Positions 42,974-55,870 of a stretch of 64,000 nucleotides of DNA are shown here, in pieces. The position numbers and the translations under genes were made by a program. Each line of letters starts with the position of its first letter. The stretch's first letter is position 1. Below the pieces are notes generated by a model. It searched no databases and was not told where the DNA came from. It saw nothing but the letters and a program-made list of their open reading frames with translations. Source of the stretch: Sulfurovum sp. (GTDB lineage: Bacteria; Campylobacterota; Campylobacteria; Campylobacterales; Sulfurovaceae); the NCBI GenBank assembly GCA_027049035.1, contig JALTVI010000024.1, forward strand, positions 1 through 64,000, read 5' to 3'.

Positions 42974-44197
42974 ATGACGGATACCTTAAACAGACAACAC
43001 TACTCGTTTCAAACCATCGGCATCGATCAGATGAAAGCACACTACCTGTTTACCGAGGAAGATGCACAAAAACTGCATAGCCTGCTCGCGATCGCACGTG
43101 AAGCACTTCCGGAAATGCAGGATGCCTTTTACACTTTTATCTTCAATTTTGAACACGCCAAAATATTTCTAAATACTAATGATGTGATCAAGAAGCATAA
43201 AAAAGGCATCGAGCAGTGGTACCTGAACCTCTTCAGCGGACAATACGATACCGCCTATTTTGAGAGTCTCTCCACCATCAGTGAAACCCATGTCAAAGTC
43301 GGACTGCCTGCCCACTATGTCAATGCCGCATTCAGTTTTGTACGCCAGTTTCTTGAAAATGTTCTGATCGATTCAGGAGATATAGACAAGCTCCCTTCCC
43401 TTCACAAGATCATTGACATCAATCTCGACATTCTAAGCCTGACCTACAAGCAGGAGTCACAGCAGAAACTGATCAAAAATATTGCCATTTTGAAAGAGAC
43501 GGTCAGACATCATAATATTGTTCCCTATGTACAACCGATTTACAGCAATAGCACCGGAGAGATTTCACACTATGAGTGCCTCATGAGAATTGCACATGAA
43601 GAGAACCATACGGTCTGCTCCATTATCCATATGCTTCAGCTTGCGAAACAGATACACCTCTATTACGATTTGATGAAACAGATGATCGAAAAGACCTTCG
43701 ATGCTTTTACCCATCTTCCGTTTTCTTTTACCCTCAACTTAAGCTATGAAGATATTGCCAACATCGATGCACGCAAATTCATAAAAAGCAGACTGGCACA
43801 GCTGCCAAACCCTTCCAGGGTCACATTTGAAATTCTTGAAACCGATATGATTACCGACTATGATGTAGTCTACGACTTTATTGAAGAAATCAAACAGTTC
43901 CAGTGCCAAATTGCCATCGATGATTTCGGTGCAGGCTACTCCAATATGGAAAATCTCTTGAAATTGAAACCTGACTATATCAAAATAGACGGCTCACTCA
44001 TTCAGAATATTGACCGTTCCGAAAAATCACTGAAGTTGGTCAAGAACATCATCAACATTACCCGCGATATCAATGCCCAAACAATAGCGGAACACGTCCA
44101 CAGTGAGGCCGTCTATACCATACTCCATACACTCGACATCGACTATCTGCAGGGATTCTATCTCTGTGAGCCCTTCCCCCTGTCAGAACTTACATAA
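42974..44197 (+). CDS. Globin-coupled EAL phosphodiesterase candidate
   Basis: A 407-residue soluble protein. The N-terminal half (about 15-155) looks like a globin-coupled sensor/protoglobin: FNFEHAKIFLNTND, GIEQWYLNLFSGQYDTAYF, then SETHVKVGLPAHYVNAAF with His106 at the proximal heme-ligand position. The C-terminal EAL domain begins VPYVQPIYSN. It has ECLMR in place of EALxR, then ILETDM, IDDFGAGYSNMENLL, YIKIDGSLI and AEHVHSEA. Oxygen or another diatomic gas may control c-di-GMP hydrolysis. The EAL-to-ECL change makes catalytic strength uncertain. Confidence 0.8.
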   Translation: MTDTLNRQHYSFQTIGIDQMKAHYLFTEEDAQKLHSLLAIAREALPEMQDAFYTFIFNFEHAKIFLNTNDVIKKHKKGIEQWYLNLFSGQYDTAYFESLSTISETHVKVGLPAHYVNAAFSFVRQFLENVLIDSGDIDKLPSLHKIIDINLDILSLTYKQESQQKLIKNIAILKETVRHHNIVPYVQPIYSNSTGEISHYECLMRIAHEENHTVCSIIHMLQLAKQIHLYYDLMKQMIEKTFDAFTHLPFSFTLNLSYEDIANIDARKFIKSRLAQLPNPSRVTFEILETDMITDYDVVYDFIEEIKQFQCQIAIDDFGAGYSNMENLLKLKPDYIKIDGSLIQNIDRSEKSLKLVKNIINITRDINAQTIAEHVHSEAVYTILHTLDIDYLQGFYLCEPFPLSELT

Positions 44198-44206
44198 AAA
44201 TACTGT

Positions 44207-45838
44207 TTAAAAGAAGAGCAGTTGAATGATGTTAAGGATGAACATTGTAATGAACCCGACTTTGTAGACCATCATCTCATTACGCTCAATAAATGAGGTG
44301 TGCCGGTCAAAATAGGGCTGTACCTTGTCGGGATTGTCGATTTCATAGAGCATCTCGGAGTAGTTGTGGTAGCGCTTGTCTGGATCGGTCTCGATGGCAC
44401 GCAGAATGACACTCTCAAGCCAGTGAGGAATCTTCGGATTGAGCCTGCTTGGATGTTTGGGATCCTTTTCAAAACTCGGAGTCTGAAACGGTTCTATCTC
44501 TCCAAACGGAAACTTCTGTGTCAATGCCTCATAGAGTGTCACCCCTATGGCATAGATCTCCGTCTGCTCGGTAATGGGTGCCTGCTTGAAACGCTCCGGC
44601 GCAAGGTATGAGGGTGTCCCGGCACGCGTTACGGTAGAGTAGGCTTCGGTGATGCTGCCAAAGTCGACCATTTTGAAGACAATCTTCTCCTTTCGTTTCG
44701 TAACGATGATGTTTTCGGGTTTGATATCGCCGTGTACCAGGTTCAGTCTGATAAGATACTGTGACATCTTCAGCAGAAAGTGTGCCAGCTCCACCCCAAG
44801 GTCGACACTCAGCGGCTTTTTGGCGATATACTCCTTAAGGGATACTCCCTCGATATAGCGCATGATGTAGTAGCGATGCGTCCTTTTTCTGGGGATGACC
44901 GCCTTTGGGAAAAAACCGGCCTTCAGCCGGTTTGCCATCCATACCTCTTTGACGAAGAGATCGAGCATCACCTCATCCTCGATCGCTTCAGGAGGCGCAA
45001 ACTTGATGACATACTGCACCCCTTTCTTTTCACACAGCCAGGTTCTGTTGTTCTGTATCAGCGGTTTGATAAGCCTGTAGCCGTCTATCTCTTCACCCTT
45101 TTTGTACTGCTCCTGAATGATCAGATCCGTCTGTTTCAACTTCAATCTCGGGTCGAGTTCTTTGATCTCAATAACCACAGCAGTGGTATCGTCAGGCAGG
45201 TCATCATTGTGCTTCTTGCTTGCCTTCTTGACCAGAAACGAGGCACCCACCTTGATGCCTTCGGCAAGCTCTTCAGGGCTGAGTTCGTTATAGAGCCCGT
45301 CACTGCAGAGCAGAATGCGGTCTCCTGCCTGCAGGTTGTTCTCGAAGTAGTAGGGTTCTACGCTCTCCTCAAGTCCTATGGCAGCGGTAAGCACATTCTC
45401 CATCCCCTCCTCATCCATCGCATGGTCGGAGGAGAGCTGTGCAAGCTGTCCGTTACGTGAGAGATAGATGCGGCTGTCACCCACATTGGCGCCATAGAGC
45501 CTGTCCCCTTCGATGACCACCAGCGTCAGTGTCGTCACCAGCTCCTGGCGCTCATACTGCTCCATAGACTCAAGATAGAGCACACGGTTTATGTTTTCGA
45601 TGAAGTGGCGAATGGACTTCTCCATACTCCAGCTTCGCGGACGGTTCTTCAGTGACTGTACCAGAAACTGTGCAGTGCGTTTTGCCGCCTCGGCCCCATG
45701 TATCGAAGAGCCAACCCCGTCACAGACAACAGCAACGGTAATGTTCTCCATCACCTTGACTTCGAAATAGTCATCGCCTTTAAGCTGTGTACCTTTAGCC
45801 AGCGTAAAGCCGCTGGTTTCAATATTCTCTTTGGACAT
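44207..45838 (-). CDS. PP2C phosphatase - Ser/Thr kinase fusion
   Basis: A 543-residue two-domain protein. The PP2C part (about 1-225) has VVCDGVG (Asp40), GANVGDSRIYL (Asp121), LLCSDGLYNEL (Asp180) and LPDDTTAVV. The kinase part (about 250-505) has YVIKF (Lys279), VHGDIKPEN (Asp371; HGD instead of HRD), VDFGS (392-394) and APERF. A C-terminal membrane helix (525-543) anchors it. Homologous fusions occur beside nitrate assimilation genes in other Proteobacteria, and here nasA, nirA and the nitrate reductase follow. It may adjust nitrate uptake or reduction after translation. Confidence 0.9.
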   Translation of the reverse strand: MSKENIETSGFTLAKGTQLKGDDYFEVKVMENITVAVVCDGVGSSIHGAEAAKRTAQFLVQSLKNRPRSWSMEKSIRHFIENINRVLYLESMEQYERQELVTTLTLVVIEGDRLYGANVGDSRIYLSRNGQLAQLSSDHAMDEEGMENVLTAAIGLEESVEPYYFENNLQAGDRILLCSDGLYNELSPEELAEGIKVGASFLVKKASKKHNDDLPDDTTAVVIEIKELDPRLKLKQTDLIIQEQYKKGEEIDGYRLIKPLIQNNRTWLCEKKGVQYVIKFAPPEAIEDEVMLDLFVKEVWMANRLKAGFFPKAVIPRKRTHRYYIMRYIEGVSLKEYIAKKPLSVDLGVELAHFLLKMSQYLIRLNLVHGDIKPENIIVTKRKEKIVFKMVDFGSITEAYSTVTRAGTPSYLAPERFKQAPITEQTEIYAIGVTLYEALTQKFPFGEIEPFQTPSFEKDPKHPSRLNPKIPHWLESVILRAIETDPDKRYHNYSEMLYEIDNPDKVQPYFDRHTSFIERNEMMVYKVGFITMFILNIIQLLFF

Positions 45839-46433: not shown

Positions 46434-47714
46434 TTAGATGATTCCACCTGCATTGGCACCCCATGTGGTTCTCCAGCGTGTCTTAACAAGTGAGATGGCA
46501 CCGATGGCAATGAGTACAAGCCCTGCAAAGATGAAGAAACCGACACTATAGCTGTCAAACGTTCCTTTCGCCCAGCCAAGTGTCTTGACAAGGAACGTAC
46601 CGCCGATACCGCCGGCTGCACCGATAAGCCCTGTCATGATACCGATATCTTTACCGAAACGCTGCGGTACGAGCTGGAAGACCGCACCGTTGGCCATACC
46701 GAGGTTAGCCATAATCAGGAAAAGTACACCGATGGCGACCCAGAACGGAAGATGAACCGCACCGCTGAGTGCTACCAGTGCTGCAACGACACCAAAGAAG
46801 ATGTAAAGTGCCTTGACACCACCCATCTTGTCTGCAATCCCCCCACCTACAGGACGCAGTACCGCACCGGCAAAGATGGTAAGGGCACCAAAATAACCGG
46901 CAATGACCTTGACATTCGGCTCATTGAAAACATCCAGTCCGAAGGCACTCATATCTGCCTGATAGGTATTCATCAGGTAGACCTTCATATAGTTTGCAAA
47001 TCCTACGAAACCACCAAAGCTGACAGCGTAGAAGAGCATAAACCACCAGCTGTCACGGTCTTTGAGCAGTTTCCAGTAGTCTCCAAGCTTCTTTGGACGC
47101 GGCTTGTAGACAGATTCGGGTGCATCTTTTGCCAGAATGATATAGGTAATGAGAACAATGAACGAAAGCAGCCCGCCAACCAGGAAGACCGCTTCCCAGC
47201 CCCACTTCTCCGCGATTTTCGGAGCGAAGAGGAAGTCGATGACCACACCGATGTTACCCGCCCCGGCAATACCCAGCACGATCCCCTGCAGCTTTGGCGG
47301 ATACCACTGTCCAGCCTGTGGCAGCGCCACAGCAAACGATGCTCCGGCAAAACCAAGGCCAAGGGCCACAACCAGTAATTCATTATAGGTAATACTCTCT
47401 CCCCTTGAGTAGGCATAGAAGAGTGACGCGATAACGATAATCTGTGCGATAATAGCCGTTTTCTTCGGTCCTATCTTGTCTACCCCGAACCCAAGTACGA
47501 TACGCAGCAGCGCACCTGCCAAAATAGGAATTGAGAGCAGTGTCGCGATCTGCCCTGAAGTCAGTGCTGCACCGTGTGCGGTGAGTGATTCGTTTATCTC
47601 CGTCGCCAGTGGCCCCAGCATCGTCCATACCATAAAACTGAAATCAAAGTAAAGGAAAGCAGCAAAGAGTGTCTTTGCATCGCCTTGTCCCTTGAGTGCC
47701 TTGAAGCTTGCCAT
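46434..47714 (-). CDS. nasA: Nitrate/nitrite MFS transporter (NarK/NasA family)
   Basis: A 426-residue transporter with 12 membrane helices. Hallmarks are FSFMVWTMLGPLATEI at the start, RIVLGFGVDKIGPKK, the nitrate signature GLGFAGASFAVALPQAGQWYPPKLQGIVLGIAGAGNIG, and the second nitrate motif around GTDIGIMTGLIGAAGGIGG-type KDIGIMTGLIGAAGGIGG. It imports nitrate for the reductase and NirA encoded divergently. Two copies of a 17-bp palindrome lie in the shared promoter region, one 41 bases upstream of its TATAAT. Confidence 0.92.
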   Translation of the reverse strand: MASFKALKGQGDAKTLFAAFLYFDFSFMVWTMLGPLATEINESLTAHGAALTSGQIATLLSIPILAGALLRIVLGFGVDKIGPKKTAIIAQIIVIASLFYAYSRGESITYNELLVVALGLGFAGASFAVALPQAGQWYPPKLQGIVLGIAGAGNIGVVIDFLFAPKIAEKWGWEAVFLVGGLLSFIVLITYIILAKDAPESVYKPRPKKLGDYWKLLKDRDSWWFMLFYAVSFGGFVGFANYMKVYLMNTYQADMSAFGLDVFNEPNVKVIAGYFGALTIFAGAVLRPVGGGIADKMGGVKALYIFFGVVAALVALSGAVHLPFWVAIGVLFLIMANLGMANGAVFQLVPQRFGKDIGIMTGLIGAAGGIGGTFLVKTLGWAKGTFDSYSVGFFIFAGLVLIAIGAISLVKTRWRTTWGANAGGII

Positions 47715-47949: not shown

Positions 47950-49869
47950 ATGGAAGCATTGGCAAAGGCGTTTGAAGCCAGAAGCAAAAAGGTCAACAAG
48001 GTTGAGACTACCAAGGCACTGAAAGACCCTATGGAGGTTTACGAGCGTCTTGAGGAGATCGCAGCGGCAGGCTACGAGGGTCTGAACAAAGAGGACTCCG
48101 CCTACTTTCTGAAGTGTTTCGGACTCTTCGACAAGGGTGAGGACTTTATGCTGCGTGTGCGTATTCCCGGCGGGCAGCTGACCAACGCACAGGCGGTCCG
48201 CATCGGTGAAGTGGCGAAGGAGTATGGTAACGACTACATCGACATTACCACTCGTATGCAGGTGGAGCTGCGCTATCTGCAGATTGCCGACATCGCAAAG
48301 GTTCTTAAAGCACTCAAGGAGGTAGGCATCTCCACTTTCCAGACCGGTGTGGACAACCCGCGTAACATTGTTACCGACCCGCTTGACGGTATCGCCTACG
48401 ACAATATCATCGAAACGATGCCGATCTTGACGCAGCTTCAGGAGATCTTCCTTGAAAAGCCTGAATGGATCTCTGCGCTGCCAAGAAAATTCAATACCGG
48501 TATTTTGGGTAGTCTGAGCAATTCCTGTAACATCTTCGGACACGACTGCAACTTCGTGCTTGCAAATAAAGACGGCAACTTCGGCTTCAACGTCTATCTG
48601 GGCGCCCGTGTCGGCGTGCAGGCGCGTGATGCCAATCTCTTCGTCACACCTGAAGAGGTTCCGGCATTCTTCAAAGCCCTGCTGAGTGTCTTCAAAACCT
48701 ACGGCTACCGCGACAATCGCAACAAGAACCGTCTGCACTTCCTGCTGCAGGATGTGGGCATTCCTGCATTCATCGAAGCGGTCAAAGAAGAGGCAGGGAT
48801 GCCATTTGCCTCAGGCGGTATGACGCTGGTACAGTCACAAAACATCGCACTGGGTGCCAACCGTGTACTGCTCAAAAACGGCACCTATGCCTACAAGGTC
48901 ATCGTCCCCTCCGGTATCTTCAGCGGGACGAACATGATTGCGGCGGCCAATGCGGCACAAACTTACGGCAGCGGCGACATCCGTCTCAGCTACGACCAGA
49001 ATCTCTACATTATCAATATTGACAAAGAGAAGCTTGAAGCCTTTGAGAACGATGAACTCATCGCCAAGTATGCGCAGTACAACAACCTCTATTTTCAGGA
49101 CATGATCGCCTGTGCCGGGACACAAACCTGCAGCTACGGTGTCATCCCCAACAAACCCGACGCCATAGAGATGGCACATTTCCTCAACTCCGAAGTGCCC
49201 ATTGCCAACGCCAATGTACGGATGAACTGGTCTGCCTGCCCCAAAGGGTGCGGGGTACACGGCATAGCCGACATCGGTTTTGAGGGGTGCAAGGCAAAAG
49301 ATGCCGACGGCAACCGTGTGGACGGGGTACACCTCTTTATGGGCGGAAAGATCACCCGCGAAGCCAAAGAGGCGCACATCCTGCACAAAGCGCTGCCTAT
49401 TGACGAAGCCAAACACCACGTCAAGTACCTGCTGAAAACCTACGCGGCATACAAAGAGCGCGGCGAGACATTCGAGCATTTCGAGACACGCTTTTTCAGC
49501 AAGAACTACAGCTACCAGGCGATAGGCTTCTTTACCAAGATAAACTACATCCTCCGCGACAAGCTGGGGCTGGATGTGATGTTCGAGCTTGACGAAGAAC
49601 CCAAAAGCGGACGCCGCGAAGAGTATGAACTCTTCACCTTCGGACTGAAACTCTTTAAACTCCTGACTGGAGAGAAGCGTTTCGAAGCAGTTACCGGACT
49701 CGCCCCCACCCTTGCACGCCCAAGAAAGATAGCACGCGATGAAGTGACCAAACTCAACCCGAAAGTCCCGCCAAAACTCTCTGAAGTCATCTACAATATG
49801 ACGCATGAAAACAAGAGTGAGCGCGCACAGGTGTTCTCTGAGCTGCTGGTGGCGCTTAAAGAGGTGTAA
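47950..49869 (+). CDS. nirA: Ferredoxin-dependent nitrite reductase with a C-terminal kinase-lobe-like extension
   Basis: A 639-residue siroheme/[4Fe-4S] enzyme that reduces nitrite to ammonium in the cytoplasm. Two ferrodoxin-like halves are seen (LRVRIPGGQLTNAQAVRIGE, TTRMQVELRYLQI). The cluster and siroheme ligands are Cys388 and Cys394 (CAGTQTC) and Cys430 and Cys434 (CPKGC). The usual NirA length is about 510-560. Here residues about 516-639 form an extra region whose last 83 residues (557-639) resemble subdomains IX-XI of Ser/Thr kinases: ELFTFGLKLFKLLTG, then LNPKVPPKLSEVIYNM, then SELLVALKEV. It is divergent from nasA under shared operators. Confidence 0.9.
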   Translation: MEALAKAFEARSKKVNKVETTKALKDPMEVYERLEEIAAAGYEGLNKEDSAYFLKCFGLFDKGEDFMLRVRIPGGQLTNAQAVRIGEVAKEYGNDYIDITTRMQVELRYLQIADIAKVLKALKEVGISTFQTGVDNPRNIVTDPLDGIAYDNIIETMPILTQLQEIFLEKPEWISALPRKFNTGILGSLSNSCNIFGHDCNFVLANKDGNFGFNVYLGARVGVQARDANLFVTPEEVPAFFKALLSVFKTYGYRDNRNKNRLHFLLQDVGIPAFIEAVKEEAGMPFASGGMTLVQSQNIALGANRVLLKNGTYAYKVIVPSGIFSGTNMIAAANAAQTYGSGDIRLSYDQNLYIINIDKEKLEAFENDELIAKYAQYNNLYFQDMIACAGTQTCSYGVIPNKPDAIEMAHFLNSEVPIANANVRMNWSACPKGCGVHGIADIGFEGCKAKDADGNRVDGVHLFMGGKITREAKEAHILHKALPIDEAKHHVKYLLKTYAAYKERGETFEHFETRFFSKNYSYQAIGFFTKINYILRDKLGLDVMFELDEEPKSGRREEYELFTFGLKLFKLLTGEKRFEAVTGLAPTLARPRKIARDEVTKLNPKVPPKLSEVIYNMTHENKSERAQVFSELLVALKEV

Positions 49870-50138: not shown

Positions 50139-51746
50139 ATGGCAGTGGAACCATTGAGCAAACACACACCGTTAGAGAGCTTCATCAACCACAAGAACGA
50201 CACCGGTATGCAGTGCGGCAACTACACCATCGACATTCCCAAACTTAAGCCCGGCGAGCAATACCGTTTCCACTTTGACGCCACCGCCTGTGTAGGGTGC
50301 CACTGCTGTGAAGTGGCGTGTAACGAACAGAACGCCAATCCCGACGACATCAAATGGCGCCGTGTGGGTGAAATGGAGACCGGCTCTTTCCCTGACACGC
50401 TGCAGCTTTTCAACTCTATGAGCTGTAACCACTGTATCGACCCCGAATGCCTTCGCGGCTGTCCTACGGAGAGCTACATCAAGCTTGACAACGGGATTGT
50501 CTGGCATGACGACCCAAGCTGTATCGGGTGCCAGTACTGTACATGGAACTGCCCCTATGAAGTGCCTGTCTTCAACCCTGACCGCGGCATTGTCACCAAG
50601 TGCCATATGTGTGTGGACAAACTCGAAGCGGGGCAGACCCCTGCGTGTGTGCAGGCATGCCCCGGTGGTGCCATCGAAATTGAAACGGTCAATGTAGAGC
50701 AGTGGCTGGCGGAAGATATGGCAAAAGAGGGAGTCGCTCCCCATCTGCCAGACATCGAGATTACCAAACCCACCACACGCTACACTCTCCCAGAACTTCC
50801 CGAAGGGCAGGAGATACGTCCGGCTGATGAGCACATCCTCAAACCTGCCCACGCTGAACTGCCGCTTGTCTTTATGACGGTACTGACACAGGTTTCGGTG
50901 GGAGCATTTCTGGCACTCTTTTTGGGACAGCTGCTCTACTCGCTTAGCTTCAACCTGCCAAAACCGAACCTCGTTATGGCGATTTTGGCGTTCCTGCCTG
51001 CTGCCATCGGACTGCCGCTTTCAGCCATGCACCTTGGACGACCGGGCAAAGCGATGAGTGCGATGAAAAACTGGAAGAGCTCATGGCTCAGCCGTGAAGC
51101 GATCGCTTTGGGCGCCTACACCGGACTGGCAATGCTTACTGCCGGACTCTACTTCCTCGATGTCGGCGGTGCACTCCTGCTGCTGCTTGAAGCACTCACC
51201 CTTGGCATAGGGCTCTACGGCATCTACGCCCAGTCGATGATCTACCGCATCAAGGCAAGACCGAGCTGGAACCGCAAGAGTACCACCAAACGCTTCTTCG
51301 GTTCTGGCTATGTCGGATTCTTGCTTATTGCTACCGCCCTGATTGCAAGCAACGGCGCGCAGGGTGCGATGGTCCTGCTTGCCATCACCCTGCTTGCGGG
51401 CATGGGGCAGGCGCTGGTGATCTTCGAAGAGGTGATGTTCTACCGCCATCTTGACAAAGAGGACCCGCTCTACTACCAGTACAACCGAAGCCGCATCCTG
51501 CTGCAGGAACACTTTGGCAACATCAAGAAGTTTCGCATCTGGTCACTGGCTGCCTTTGGCCTTGCACTGCCCCTGCTTGCCATCCTCTTTACCGCCAGCG
51601 GCCTGACAGGCCTGGCCATCGCCACACTTGTCGTTGCGACTCTCGGTGCCCTGGCATCCGAACTTGCCGGACGCTACCTCTTCTACCGCACCGTAGTACC
51701 GTTGGGGCTTGCAGGGAACTTCTTTGCAGGGAACCAAAGACACTGA
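50139..51746 (+). CDS. DmsB-DmsC-type fusion: four-cluster ferredoxin plus membrane anchor
   Basis: A 535-residue fusion. Residues about 40-205 form a DmsB-like ferredoxin with four Cys groups (ACVGCHCCEVACNE, SCNHCIDPECLRGCP, SCIGCQYCTWNCP, KCHMCVDKLEAGQTPACVQACP). Residues about 240-530 form a DmsC-like anchor with about eight membrane helices. There is no Tat or Sec signal, so the ferredoxin part faces the cytoplasm. It probably passes electrons from quinol to the nitrate reductase encoded next. In most Proteobacteria the two parts are separate genes. Confidence 0.85.
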   Translation: MAVEPLSKHTPLESFINHKNDTGMQCGNYTIDIPKLKPGEQYRFHFDATACVGCHCCEVACNEQNANPDDIKWRRVGEMETGSFPDTLQLFNSMSCNHCIDPECLRGCPTESYIKLDNGIVWHDDPSCIGCQYCTWNCPYEVPVFNPDRGIVTKCHMCVDKLEAGQTPACVQACPGGAIEIETVNVEQWLAEDMAKEGVAPHLPDIEITKPTTRYTLPELPEGQEIRPADEHILKPAHAELPLVFMTVLTQVSVGAFLALFLGQLLYSLSFNLPKPNLVMAILAFLPAAIGLPLSAMHLGRPGKAMSAMKNWKSSWLSREAIALGAYTGLAMLTAGLYFLDVGGALLLLLEALTLGIGLYGIYAQSMIYRIKARPSWNRKSTTKRFFGSGYVGFLLIATALIASNGAQGAMVLLAITLLAGMGQALVIFEEVMFYRHLDKEDPLYYQYNRSRILLQEHFGNIKKFRIWSLAAFGLALPLLAILFTASGLTGLAIATLVVATLGALASELAGRYLFYRTVVPLGLAGNFFAGNQRH

Positions 51747-54409: not shown

Positions 54410-55870
54410 GTGGCAGAAAACAGCGTCAAAACACAGAAATTCATCCTCAAACTCTTTCCGGAGATCATGGTCAAGGGGGCTTCGGCAAAGAAGCAGATGG
54501 TCAACCAGCTCTATCAAAACCTCTTTGCACTCCTCAAATCGATCGATGAGACAATCGAGATTAAAAAATTCTCCGATAAGATCGAAGTGGTTACCCCCAT
54601 CGAAAAGGTCGATACGGTACGCGAAACACTCCTGAATACCTCCGGTATCGAACAGGTGCTTGAAGCGCTTCAGTTTGACAAAACCGATACCCTTGAAGCC
54701 ATCAAAACAACAGTAGCACAAACCGTTGCCAAAGAGGTTGCAGGCAAGAGCTTCGTCGTACGCGCCAAGCGTACCGGCACACACCCTTTCAACTCTTCTG
54801 AGATGGAGCGGGTCGTCGGCGGATATACGCTGGCACACACCGATGCAAAGAGAGTCGACCTGCACAACCCCGATGTGACGGTACGCATAGAGCTTATCAA
54901 CCAGCAGCTCAATATCATCACGGCCAAGCATGAGGGGCTCAGCGGCTTTCCCATCGGCACGCAGGGTGACATTCTCTCTTTGATGTCAGGCGGATTCGAC
55001 TCCACCGTTGCAAGCTTTCTGACGATGAAGCGTGGTATCAAGACACACTTCATCTTCTTCAACCTCGGCGGTGCAGCACACGAAATAGGTGTCAAGCAGG
55101 TAGCATGGTATCTATGGAGCAAGTTCGGCGCCTCCCACCGTGTCAAGTTCGTCACCATACCTTTTGAGGATGTCGTTACCGAAATCTTCCGTTCCACACA
55201 CGAAAGCTATATGGGTGTCACCCTCAAACGGCTGATGCTGATGGCTGCGGAAAAAATCGCCGACAGTATGGAAATCGATGCGCTGCTGACAGGCGAAAGT
55301 GTTGCACAGGTCTCCAGCCAGACGCTGCGCAACCTCGCACTCATCGACCAGGCGACAACAAAACTGGTACTTCGCCCGTTGGCAACTGTCAACAAACCGG
55401 AGATCATCCGTATCGCCACACAGATAGGCACACGCCGATTTGCGGAGAATATGCCCGAATACTGCGGTGTCATCTCCAAAAACCCCATCACGCACGGTTC
55501 GTTCAAACGTATGGAGCGCGAAGCCAAGCGTTTCGATTACGCTGTCCTTGACAGAGCAGTTGAGAGCGCAAAAACCATCTATGTCGACGAGATTGTCGAA
55601 GACATCACCGACAATGCCCCCATTGAGATCGTTACCTCACCCAACCCCGAGAACGATGTCATCATCGATATCCGTGCAGATGAAAAAACCGTAGAGACGC
55701 CTTGTGAAACGATTAAAATCCCGTTCCATCAGCTCAAAACGGAGTTCAAAAAGCTGCCCAAAGCAAAAAACTACCTGCTCTACTGCGACAAAGGGGTGCT
55801 TAGCCAGCTGCACGCGCAGTACCTAAAAGATGCGGAAGGAGCGGATGTGAAGGTGTACAGGCCGGAATAA
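54410..55870 (+). CDS. thiI: tRNA 4-thiouridine synthase ThiI with rhodanese domain
   Basis: A 486-residue enzyme: N-terminal ferredoxin-like and THUMP domains (LYQNLFALLKSIDETIEIKKF, VRAKRTGTHPFNS), then a PP-loop domain with LMSGGFDSTVASFLTMKRG, and a C-terminal rhodanese domain whose active Cys is in YLLYCDKGVLSQLH. It adds sulfur to U8 of tRNA and supplies sulfur for thiamine in many species. It starts with GTG 54410 after AAGGAAA. It is unrelated to the nitrate genes in front. The stop abuts a GGATTGA array. Confidence 0.93.
   Translation: MAENSVKTQKFILKLFPEIMVKGASAKKQMVNQLYQNLFALLKSIDETIEIKKFSDKIEVVTPIEKVDTVRETLLNTSGIEQVLEALQFDKTDTLEAIKTTVAQTVAKEVAGKSFVVRAKRTGTHPFNSSEMERVVGGYTLAHTDAKRVDLHNPDVTVRIELINQQLNIITAKHEGLSGFPIGTQGDILSLMSGGFDSTVASFLTMKRGIKTHFIFFNLGGAAHEIGVKQVAWYLWSKFGASHRVKFVTIPFEDVVTEIFRSTHESYMGVTLKRLMLMAAEKIADSMEIDALLTGESVAQVSSQTLRNLALIDQATTKLVLRPLATVNKPEIIRIATQIGTRRFAENMPEYCGVISKNPITHGSFKRMEREAKRFDYAVLDRAVESAKTIYVDEIVEDITDNAPIEIVTSPNPENDVIIDIRADEKTVETPCETIKIPFHQLKTEFKKLPKAKNYLLYCDKGVLSQLHAQYLKDAEGADVKVYRPE

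Follow-up and report, generated by a model that had tools for sequence, protein, structure and literature searches.

A nitrite reductase of Campylobacterota with a C-terminal tail predicted to be a truncated, catalytically dead kinase C-lobe

Ferredoxin-nitrite reductases of the NirA family (PRK09566 / NF007125) are about 513 amino acids long, and some cyanobacterial NirAs carry a C-terminal [2Fe-2S] ferredoxin domain. The NirA described here shares the family core (residues 1–515) with its siroheme/4Fe-4S cysteines and the setting in a nitrate-assimilation cluster, but has 124 extra residues, whose fold is different from that of the cyanobacterial extension. Bifunctional protein-serine/threonine kinase/phosphatases are encoded in nitrate, nitrite and cyanate transport clusters of Methylocystis, Shewanella and Acinetobacter plasmids. 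They resemble Kin1, the kinase-phosphatase encoded near this NirA, in their PP2C-kinase architecture and in lying beside an MFS or formate/nitrite transporter. The proteobacterial members are 24–30% identical to Kin1; the NirA tail corresponds to the C-lobe only and has no catalysis. The Methylocystis cluster uses NirB/NirD, and its NirB (826 aa) is of ordinary length. The best solved-structure matches of the tail, from α-F to α-I, are the PASTA kinases PknB, Stk1 and StkP (PDB 2fum, 4eqm, 9ymt), which, unlike the tail, are complete kinases. Pseudokinases such as the kinase-homology domain of Rv3910 (PDB 3uqc, Z 5.4 to the tail) employ a kinase fold without catalysis for interaction; they retain both lobes, whereas the tail retains the helical core of the C-lobe only. 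Fusions between enzymes and fragments of signalling proteins are known; to our knowledge, it is rare for an enzyme to bear part of the protein that regulates it. An isolated, catalytically dead C-lobe that stems from the kinase of the same pathway and has been retained across several Campylobacterota families is an unusual variant of such fusions. A Sulfurimonas genome paper names nirA without mention of the tail (PMC7952632), and no description of the tail was found in the literature searched, which scarcely covered subscription journals.

The window (the whole 64,000-nucleotide stretch of Sulfurovum sp. DNA that was analysed) contains a nitrate-assimilation cluster composed of Kin1, an MFS transporter, NirA, an Fe-S/DmsC-like subunit and a nitrate reductase (Table 1). 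A protoglobin-EAL protein (globin sensor and c-di-GMP phosphodiesterase domain; 42974–44197) adjoins Kin1, and ThiI (THUMP and ThiI domains; 54410–55870) lies directly downstream of the nitrate reductase. According to Pfam, NCBIfam and the alignment, the NirA core has both the NIR_SIR repeats and the four siroheme/4Fe-4S cysteines (C388, C394, C430 and C434), which are invariant among relatives. The protein is a predicted ferredoxin-nitrite reductase, with a PRK09566 score of 364.6 that is lower than the equivalog cut-off of that model (594). The named Sulfurovum genomes nearest to the window encode NirAs that are 94–97% identical. On the window protein, the NirA models end between residue 497 (PRK09566, a 513-position model) and residue 515 (PRK09567), so that residues 516–639 are an added C-terminal tail, as the original prediction, made from this sequence alone, had claimed.

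Table 1. Features of the nitrate-assimilation cluster and of the NirA tail in the window.
Feature	Position	Strand	Basis or remark
NirA ORF, 639 aa	47950-49869	+	stop codon 49867-49869
NirA catalytic core, predicted ferredoxin-nitrite reductase, residues 1-515	47950..49494	+	Pfam NIR_SIR, NIR_SIR_ferr; NCBIfam PRK09566 E=6.9e-109
NirA C-terminal tail, residues 516-639, predicted truncated, catalytically dead kinase C-lobe	49495..49866	+	profiles, BLASTP, AF2, relatives
First tail helix, residues 522-538 (tail 7-23)	49513..49563	+	AF2; structure only
Kinase-homologous part of tail, residues ~556-638, α-F, α-H, α-I (subdomains IX-XI)	49615..49863	+	sequence/profile alignments
Kin1, PP2C phosphatase + Ser/Thr kinase + C-terminal hydrophobic segment, 543 aa	44207..45838	-	Pfam PP2C_2, Pkinase
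Kin1 stretch homologous to tail, residues 424-501	44336..44569	-	BLASTP, hhalign ranges; match G000:C20:44339-44575
MFS nitrate/nitrite transporter, NrtP-like	46434..47714	-	Pfam MFS_1; adjoins Kin1
Fe-S / DmsC-like membrane electron-transfer subunit of the cluster	50139..51746	+	Pfam Fer4_11, DmsC
Assimilatory-type molybdopterin nitrate reductase, putative start codon	51963..54365	+	Pfam Molybdopterin, Molydop_binding

The tail had also been lined up by eye with subdomains IX–XI of Kin1, and BLASTP recovers this alignment in the same register (E=4e-6, 27% identity over 78 aa). Profile-profile comparison of the tail with the Kin1 family (28 sequences) by hhalign is significant (probability 95.6, E=1.2e-8). 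The NCBIfam PknB model matches the window tail at E=6.6e-5 and 30 of 44 related tails, and the tail profile retrieves Staphylococcus aureus Stk1 (E=1.9e-6) and StkP (E=5e-4) among PDB sequences. A Kin1 profile scores tails at up to 43 bits in the forward direction and at no more than 0.9 bits when reversed. In the tail alignment, which contains C-lobe subdomains IX–XI, the α-F Gly (G50) and the α-I Arg (R110) are invariant. Judged from these sequence comparisons, residues ~556–638 of NirA share ancestry with the C-lobe of Ser/Thr kinases; the tail begins 40 residues before this part, and its first section includes an additional conserved helix. Pfam Pkinase gives no significant match to the window tail, so routine annotation overlooks the tail and profile methods are needed. 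A Pfam match to DUF6662 (E=0.12) is weak and was set aside as chance, and an AvrBs3-repeat PDB match of the tail profile, in which no single stretch is significant, was likewise treated as noise.

The AlphaFold2 model of the tail, predicted on 44 tails, has a pLDDT of 87.9 and a pTM of 0.84. It consists of a helix at residues 7–23, a long helix at residues 42–58 (α-F), an irregular short stretch, and two helices at residues 93–102 and 107–122 (α-H and α-I). The tail is also well folded in the model of full-length NirA, in which most 10-residue blocks have a pLDDT of 81–94 and the overall pTM is 0.84. When the tail model was compared with the PDB by Foldseek and VIA-align, kinases filled 50 of 50 rows among the matches listed in each, with PknB first (Foldseek probability 1.00, E=0.046; VIA-align Z 6.8, rmsd 4.0 over 83 residues). 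For a model of this small size, the Z score and the Foldseek E-value are modest, and the homology claim is carried by the sequence evidence. Several VIA-align rows begin at tail model residues 7–12, ahead of the kinase catalytic loop, which suggests that the first tail helix may lie at the place of kinase α-E; the sequence profiles (hhalign, Kin1 and tail profiles) detected no kinase likeness in this helix. The 124-aa tail, which directly follows the NirA core, lacks the N-lobe, the Lys, the HRD-type catalytic loop, DFG, APE and α-G. Without an N-lobe, a catalytic loop and an activation segment, the tail cannot be a kinase. It contains neither a PP2C domain nor a C-terminal membrane segment; what it retains is the core of a C-lobe by itself, not a two-lobed pseudokinase fold.

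The scores of a profile of 41 diverse tails distinguish Kin1 from Kin2, a 26–29% identical PP2C-kinase adjoining a formate/nitrite transporter (with cyanase in some genomes). Thirty-eight complete Kin1 C-lobes score 35–58 bits and one contig-truncated Kin1 scores 12 bits, compared with 9–22 bits for seven Kin2 C-lobes and at most 19 bits for nine other campylobacterial kinases, in a set that was mainly campylobacterial and included few outside kinases. This preference for Kin1 over the other kinases (at most 22 bits) indicates that the tail derives from Kin1. In the reverse direction, the Kin1 profile gives the tails a median of 21.5 bits, compared with 4.4 bits for Kin2 and 7.8 bits for the others. 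Kin2 was rejected as the source on these profile scores and on the hhalign E-value of the tail, which is 1.3e-4 against Kin2. Three sequence features are common to the tail and Kin1: the motif ExxE[IL][FY]xxG, in which Glu replaces the usual kinase subdomain IX Asp; a Pro-rich [YF]xE[IV]xxF(Q)xP-like stretch after α-F, where other kinases have α-G; and R..x[YF]SE at the end. In a tree of the short alignment, holding the tails and Kin1 as a clade improves lnL by 12.6, a difference for which the AU test does not separate the constrained tree from the free tree. Taken at the sequence level, the tail is almost certainly a partial, truncated copy of a Kin1-type kinase C-lobe. The proposal that a kinase C-lobe fragment is fused to NirA therefore holds, and hhalign and the tail and Kin1 profiles place the fragment as a relative of the adjoining kinase-phosphatase.

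To place the tail in the phylum, 298 genomes with a completeness of at least 90%, drawn evenly from Campylobacterota, were surveyed, which yielded 48 close NirA orthologues and one distant outgroup. The tail is full in 40 orthologues (one cut by a contig end), shortened in three (G263, G050 and G269) and absent from five. The G263 tail (L085:10949-12649) stops after the first helix; the G050 and G269 tails (L088 and L090) keep α-F and the C-terminal motifs. In the NirA-core tree, the five tail-less NirAs form one clade nested among the tailed ones, which indicates that the tail was lost once and cleanly. The tail predates the divergence of the sampled families and is ancestral to Campylobacterota NirA. 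Among the named-genome near relatives of the window, the tail is present wherever NirA is complete, and a full-length NirA search of genome contigs returned campylobacterial relatives only. Pairwise comparison of close Sulfurovum sequences gives the tail a dN/dS of 0.061, near the 0.049 of the core, which indicates that the tail is kept by purifying selection. G029, a genome of the same genus that lacks NirA, has an orphan tail-like ORF (108–131 aa; L100:4633-5040) immediately upstream of an rseP-like gene. This ORF, which shares 40% identity with the G293 tail and has no NirA core detected next to it, is a free-standing tail or a relic.

The Kin1 family alignment conserves HGDIKPEN, DFG and APE, and Kin1 is probably membrane-anchored via its C-terminal hydrophobic segment. 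In 20 genomes checked, a close NrtP is present where Kin1 is present and absent where Kin1 is absent; G293, which has no Kin1, has a distant MFS protein at 35% identity. In G035, a genome of the same genus without a NirA orthologue, Kin1 and the nitrate transporter are both broken by in-frame stops (L213, G035:C13:117000-128000; G035:C13:131350-132586), which suggests joint decay of the nitrate-assimilation cluster. Gains and losses of Kin1 coincide with those of the MFS nitrate transporter, to which Kin1 is more strictly tied than to the tail. Kin1 is thus most plausibly a transporter-linked regulator from which the tail was borrowed.

For 36 of the 43 NirAs with a full or short tail, Kin1 is present in the genome. 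The remaining seven genomes also lack its transporter; four of them have Kin2 only (G173, G296, G238 and G330), and three have neither kinase (G246, G293 and G269). A strict dependency of the tail on the kinase was rejected on these seven. The tail-less NirAs of G278 and G040 keep Kin1 next door, and three of the five members of the tail-loss clade are also without the kinase. Counted by genome and ignoring shared ancestry, the association of tail and kinase has a Fisher p of 0.054 for Kin1 and 0.010 for any such kinase, with only two independent contrasts. After removal of the core distance, tail distances correlate weakly with Kin1 distances (r=0.295, Mantel p=0.0005, in a partial test that tends to overstate significance), compared with r=-0.105 for the transporter. 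Core and tail distances correlate strongly (r=0.89). The tail is no closer to the Kin1 of its own genome (mean identity 23.8%) than to those of others (23.5%). Faster tail evolution in the kinase-less G246 relative to its sisters was looked for and not found; in the other two genomes without either kinase, the tail is short (G269) or has lost the conserved Arg (G293).

The best explanation, which we favour tentatively and with somewhat less than even confidence, is that the tail, a dead C-lobe derived from Kin1 and kept by selection, serves as a protein-interaction module, most likely acting via Kin1. Since the tail descends from the Kin1 C-lobe, its simplest partner would be Kin1 itself or binding partners of that C-lobe, which the tail would mimic. 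Such binding would bring soluble NirA to the membrane module of Kin1 and the transporter, where nitrate uptake could be matched to nitrite-reducing capacity; alternatively, Kin1 might be tuned by NirA. Docking to Kin1 specifically, which the original prediction had offered as one role, is a possible but doubtful reading: it agrees with the 36 tailed NirAs that have Kin1 in the genome, and fits poorly with the four that have Kin2 only, the three with neither and the two tail-less NirAs that keep Kin1. We consider it unlikely, though conceivable, that NirA uses the dead C-lobe to control the kinase-phosphatase of its own pathway in trans, with the rate of nitrate import then set by how much NirA is present or by its state. 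Owing to the tail carriers without a kinase, docking to Kin1 is nearly level with a role within NirA itself, in which the Kin1-derived tail now stabilises NirA, supports its oligomerisation or docks a redox partner such as ferredoxin, and the link to Kin1 is gone. The latter is a serious contender of which we are likewise unconvinced. The normal constraint on the tail in lineages without Kin1 (three without any such kinase), the close correlation of core and tail distances and the well-folded tail in the full-length model argue for it, while the five NirAs of the tail-less clade manage without a tail, and the residual co-variation of the tail with Kin1, with none for the transporter, points away from it.

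The tail could also act beyond tethering as a dominant-negative partner, which competes with or caps the Kin1 C-lobe and inhibits Kin1 at high NirA. Its origin from the same C-lobe is consistent with this, as is the retention of R110 and the α-F residue E45 although the APE Glu and the catalytic loop, their usual partners within a kinase, have been deleted, which fits contacts in trans. However, these two residues may simply touch the core of NirA, and the tail occurs in seven genomes without Kin1, which makes this mechanism improbable. The original prediction had alternatively regarded the tail as a remnant of a gene fusion, which stands as an account of its origin. As an account of function it is wrong because the dN/dS of the tail (0.06) is like that of the enzyme core. 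The loss of all catalytic elements, the absence of the tail from one clade, its shortening in some members and the orphan ORF in G029 would suit a non-functional leftover of an old NirA-kinase fusion, but purifying selection largely refutes it, and the presence of the tail in 43 of the 48 orthologues, which span several families, together with its stable, confidently predicted fold, makes it very improbable. Chance or convergent likeness of a small helical bundle to a kinase is hardly credible: a VIA-align Z of 6.8 is within the range of accidental helical matches and the Foldseek E-value is only 0.046, whereas the sequence matches (E=4e-6, 1.2e-8 and 1.9e-6), the Kin1 scores of up to 58 bits and the silence of reversed tails refute it.

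Half of a kinase domain from the kinase of a pathway has become a lasting part of an enzyme of the same pathway, and was missed by Pfam. If the tail binds Kin1, it would show how these vent and sediment bacteria couple nitrate uptake to nitrite reduction, and would provide a natural minimal interaction module built from a kinase C-lobe. The tail also draws attention to the transporter-linked kinase-phosphatases of the Kin1 type, which are apparently an uncharacterised family. Similar kinases on proteobacterial plasmids adjoin nitrate or formate/nitrite transporters. Kin2 is located beside a formate/nitrite transporter and/or cyanase at L079:2679-5310, L094:4118-7197 and L114:7979-10223, and the trio of cynS, formate/nitrite transporter and kinase also occurs on an Acinetobacter johnsonii plasmid (L217).
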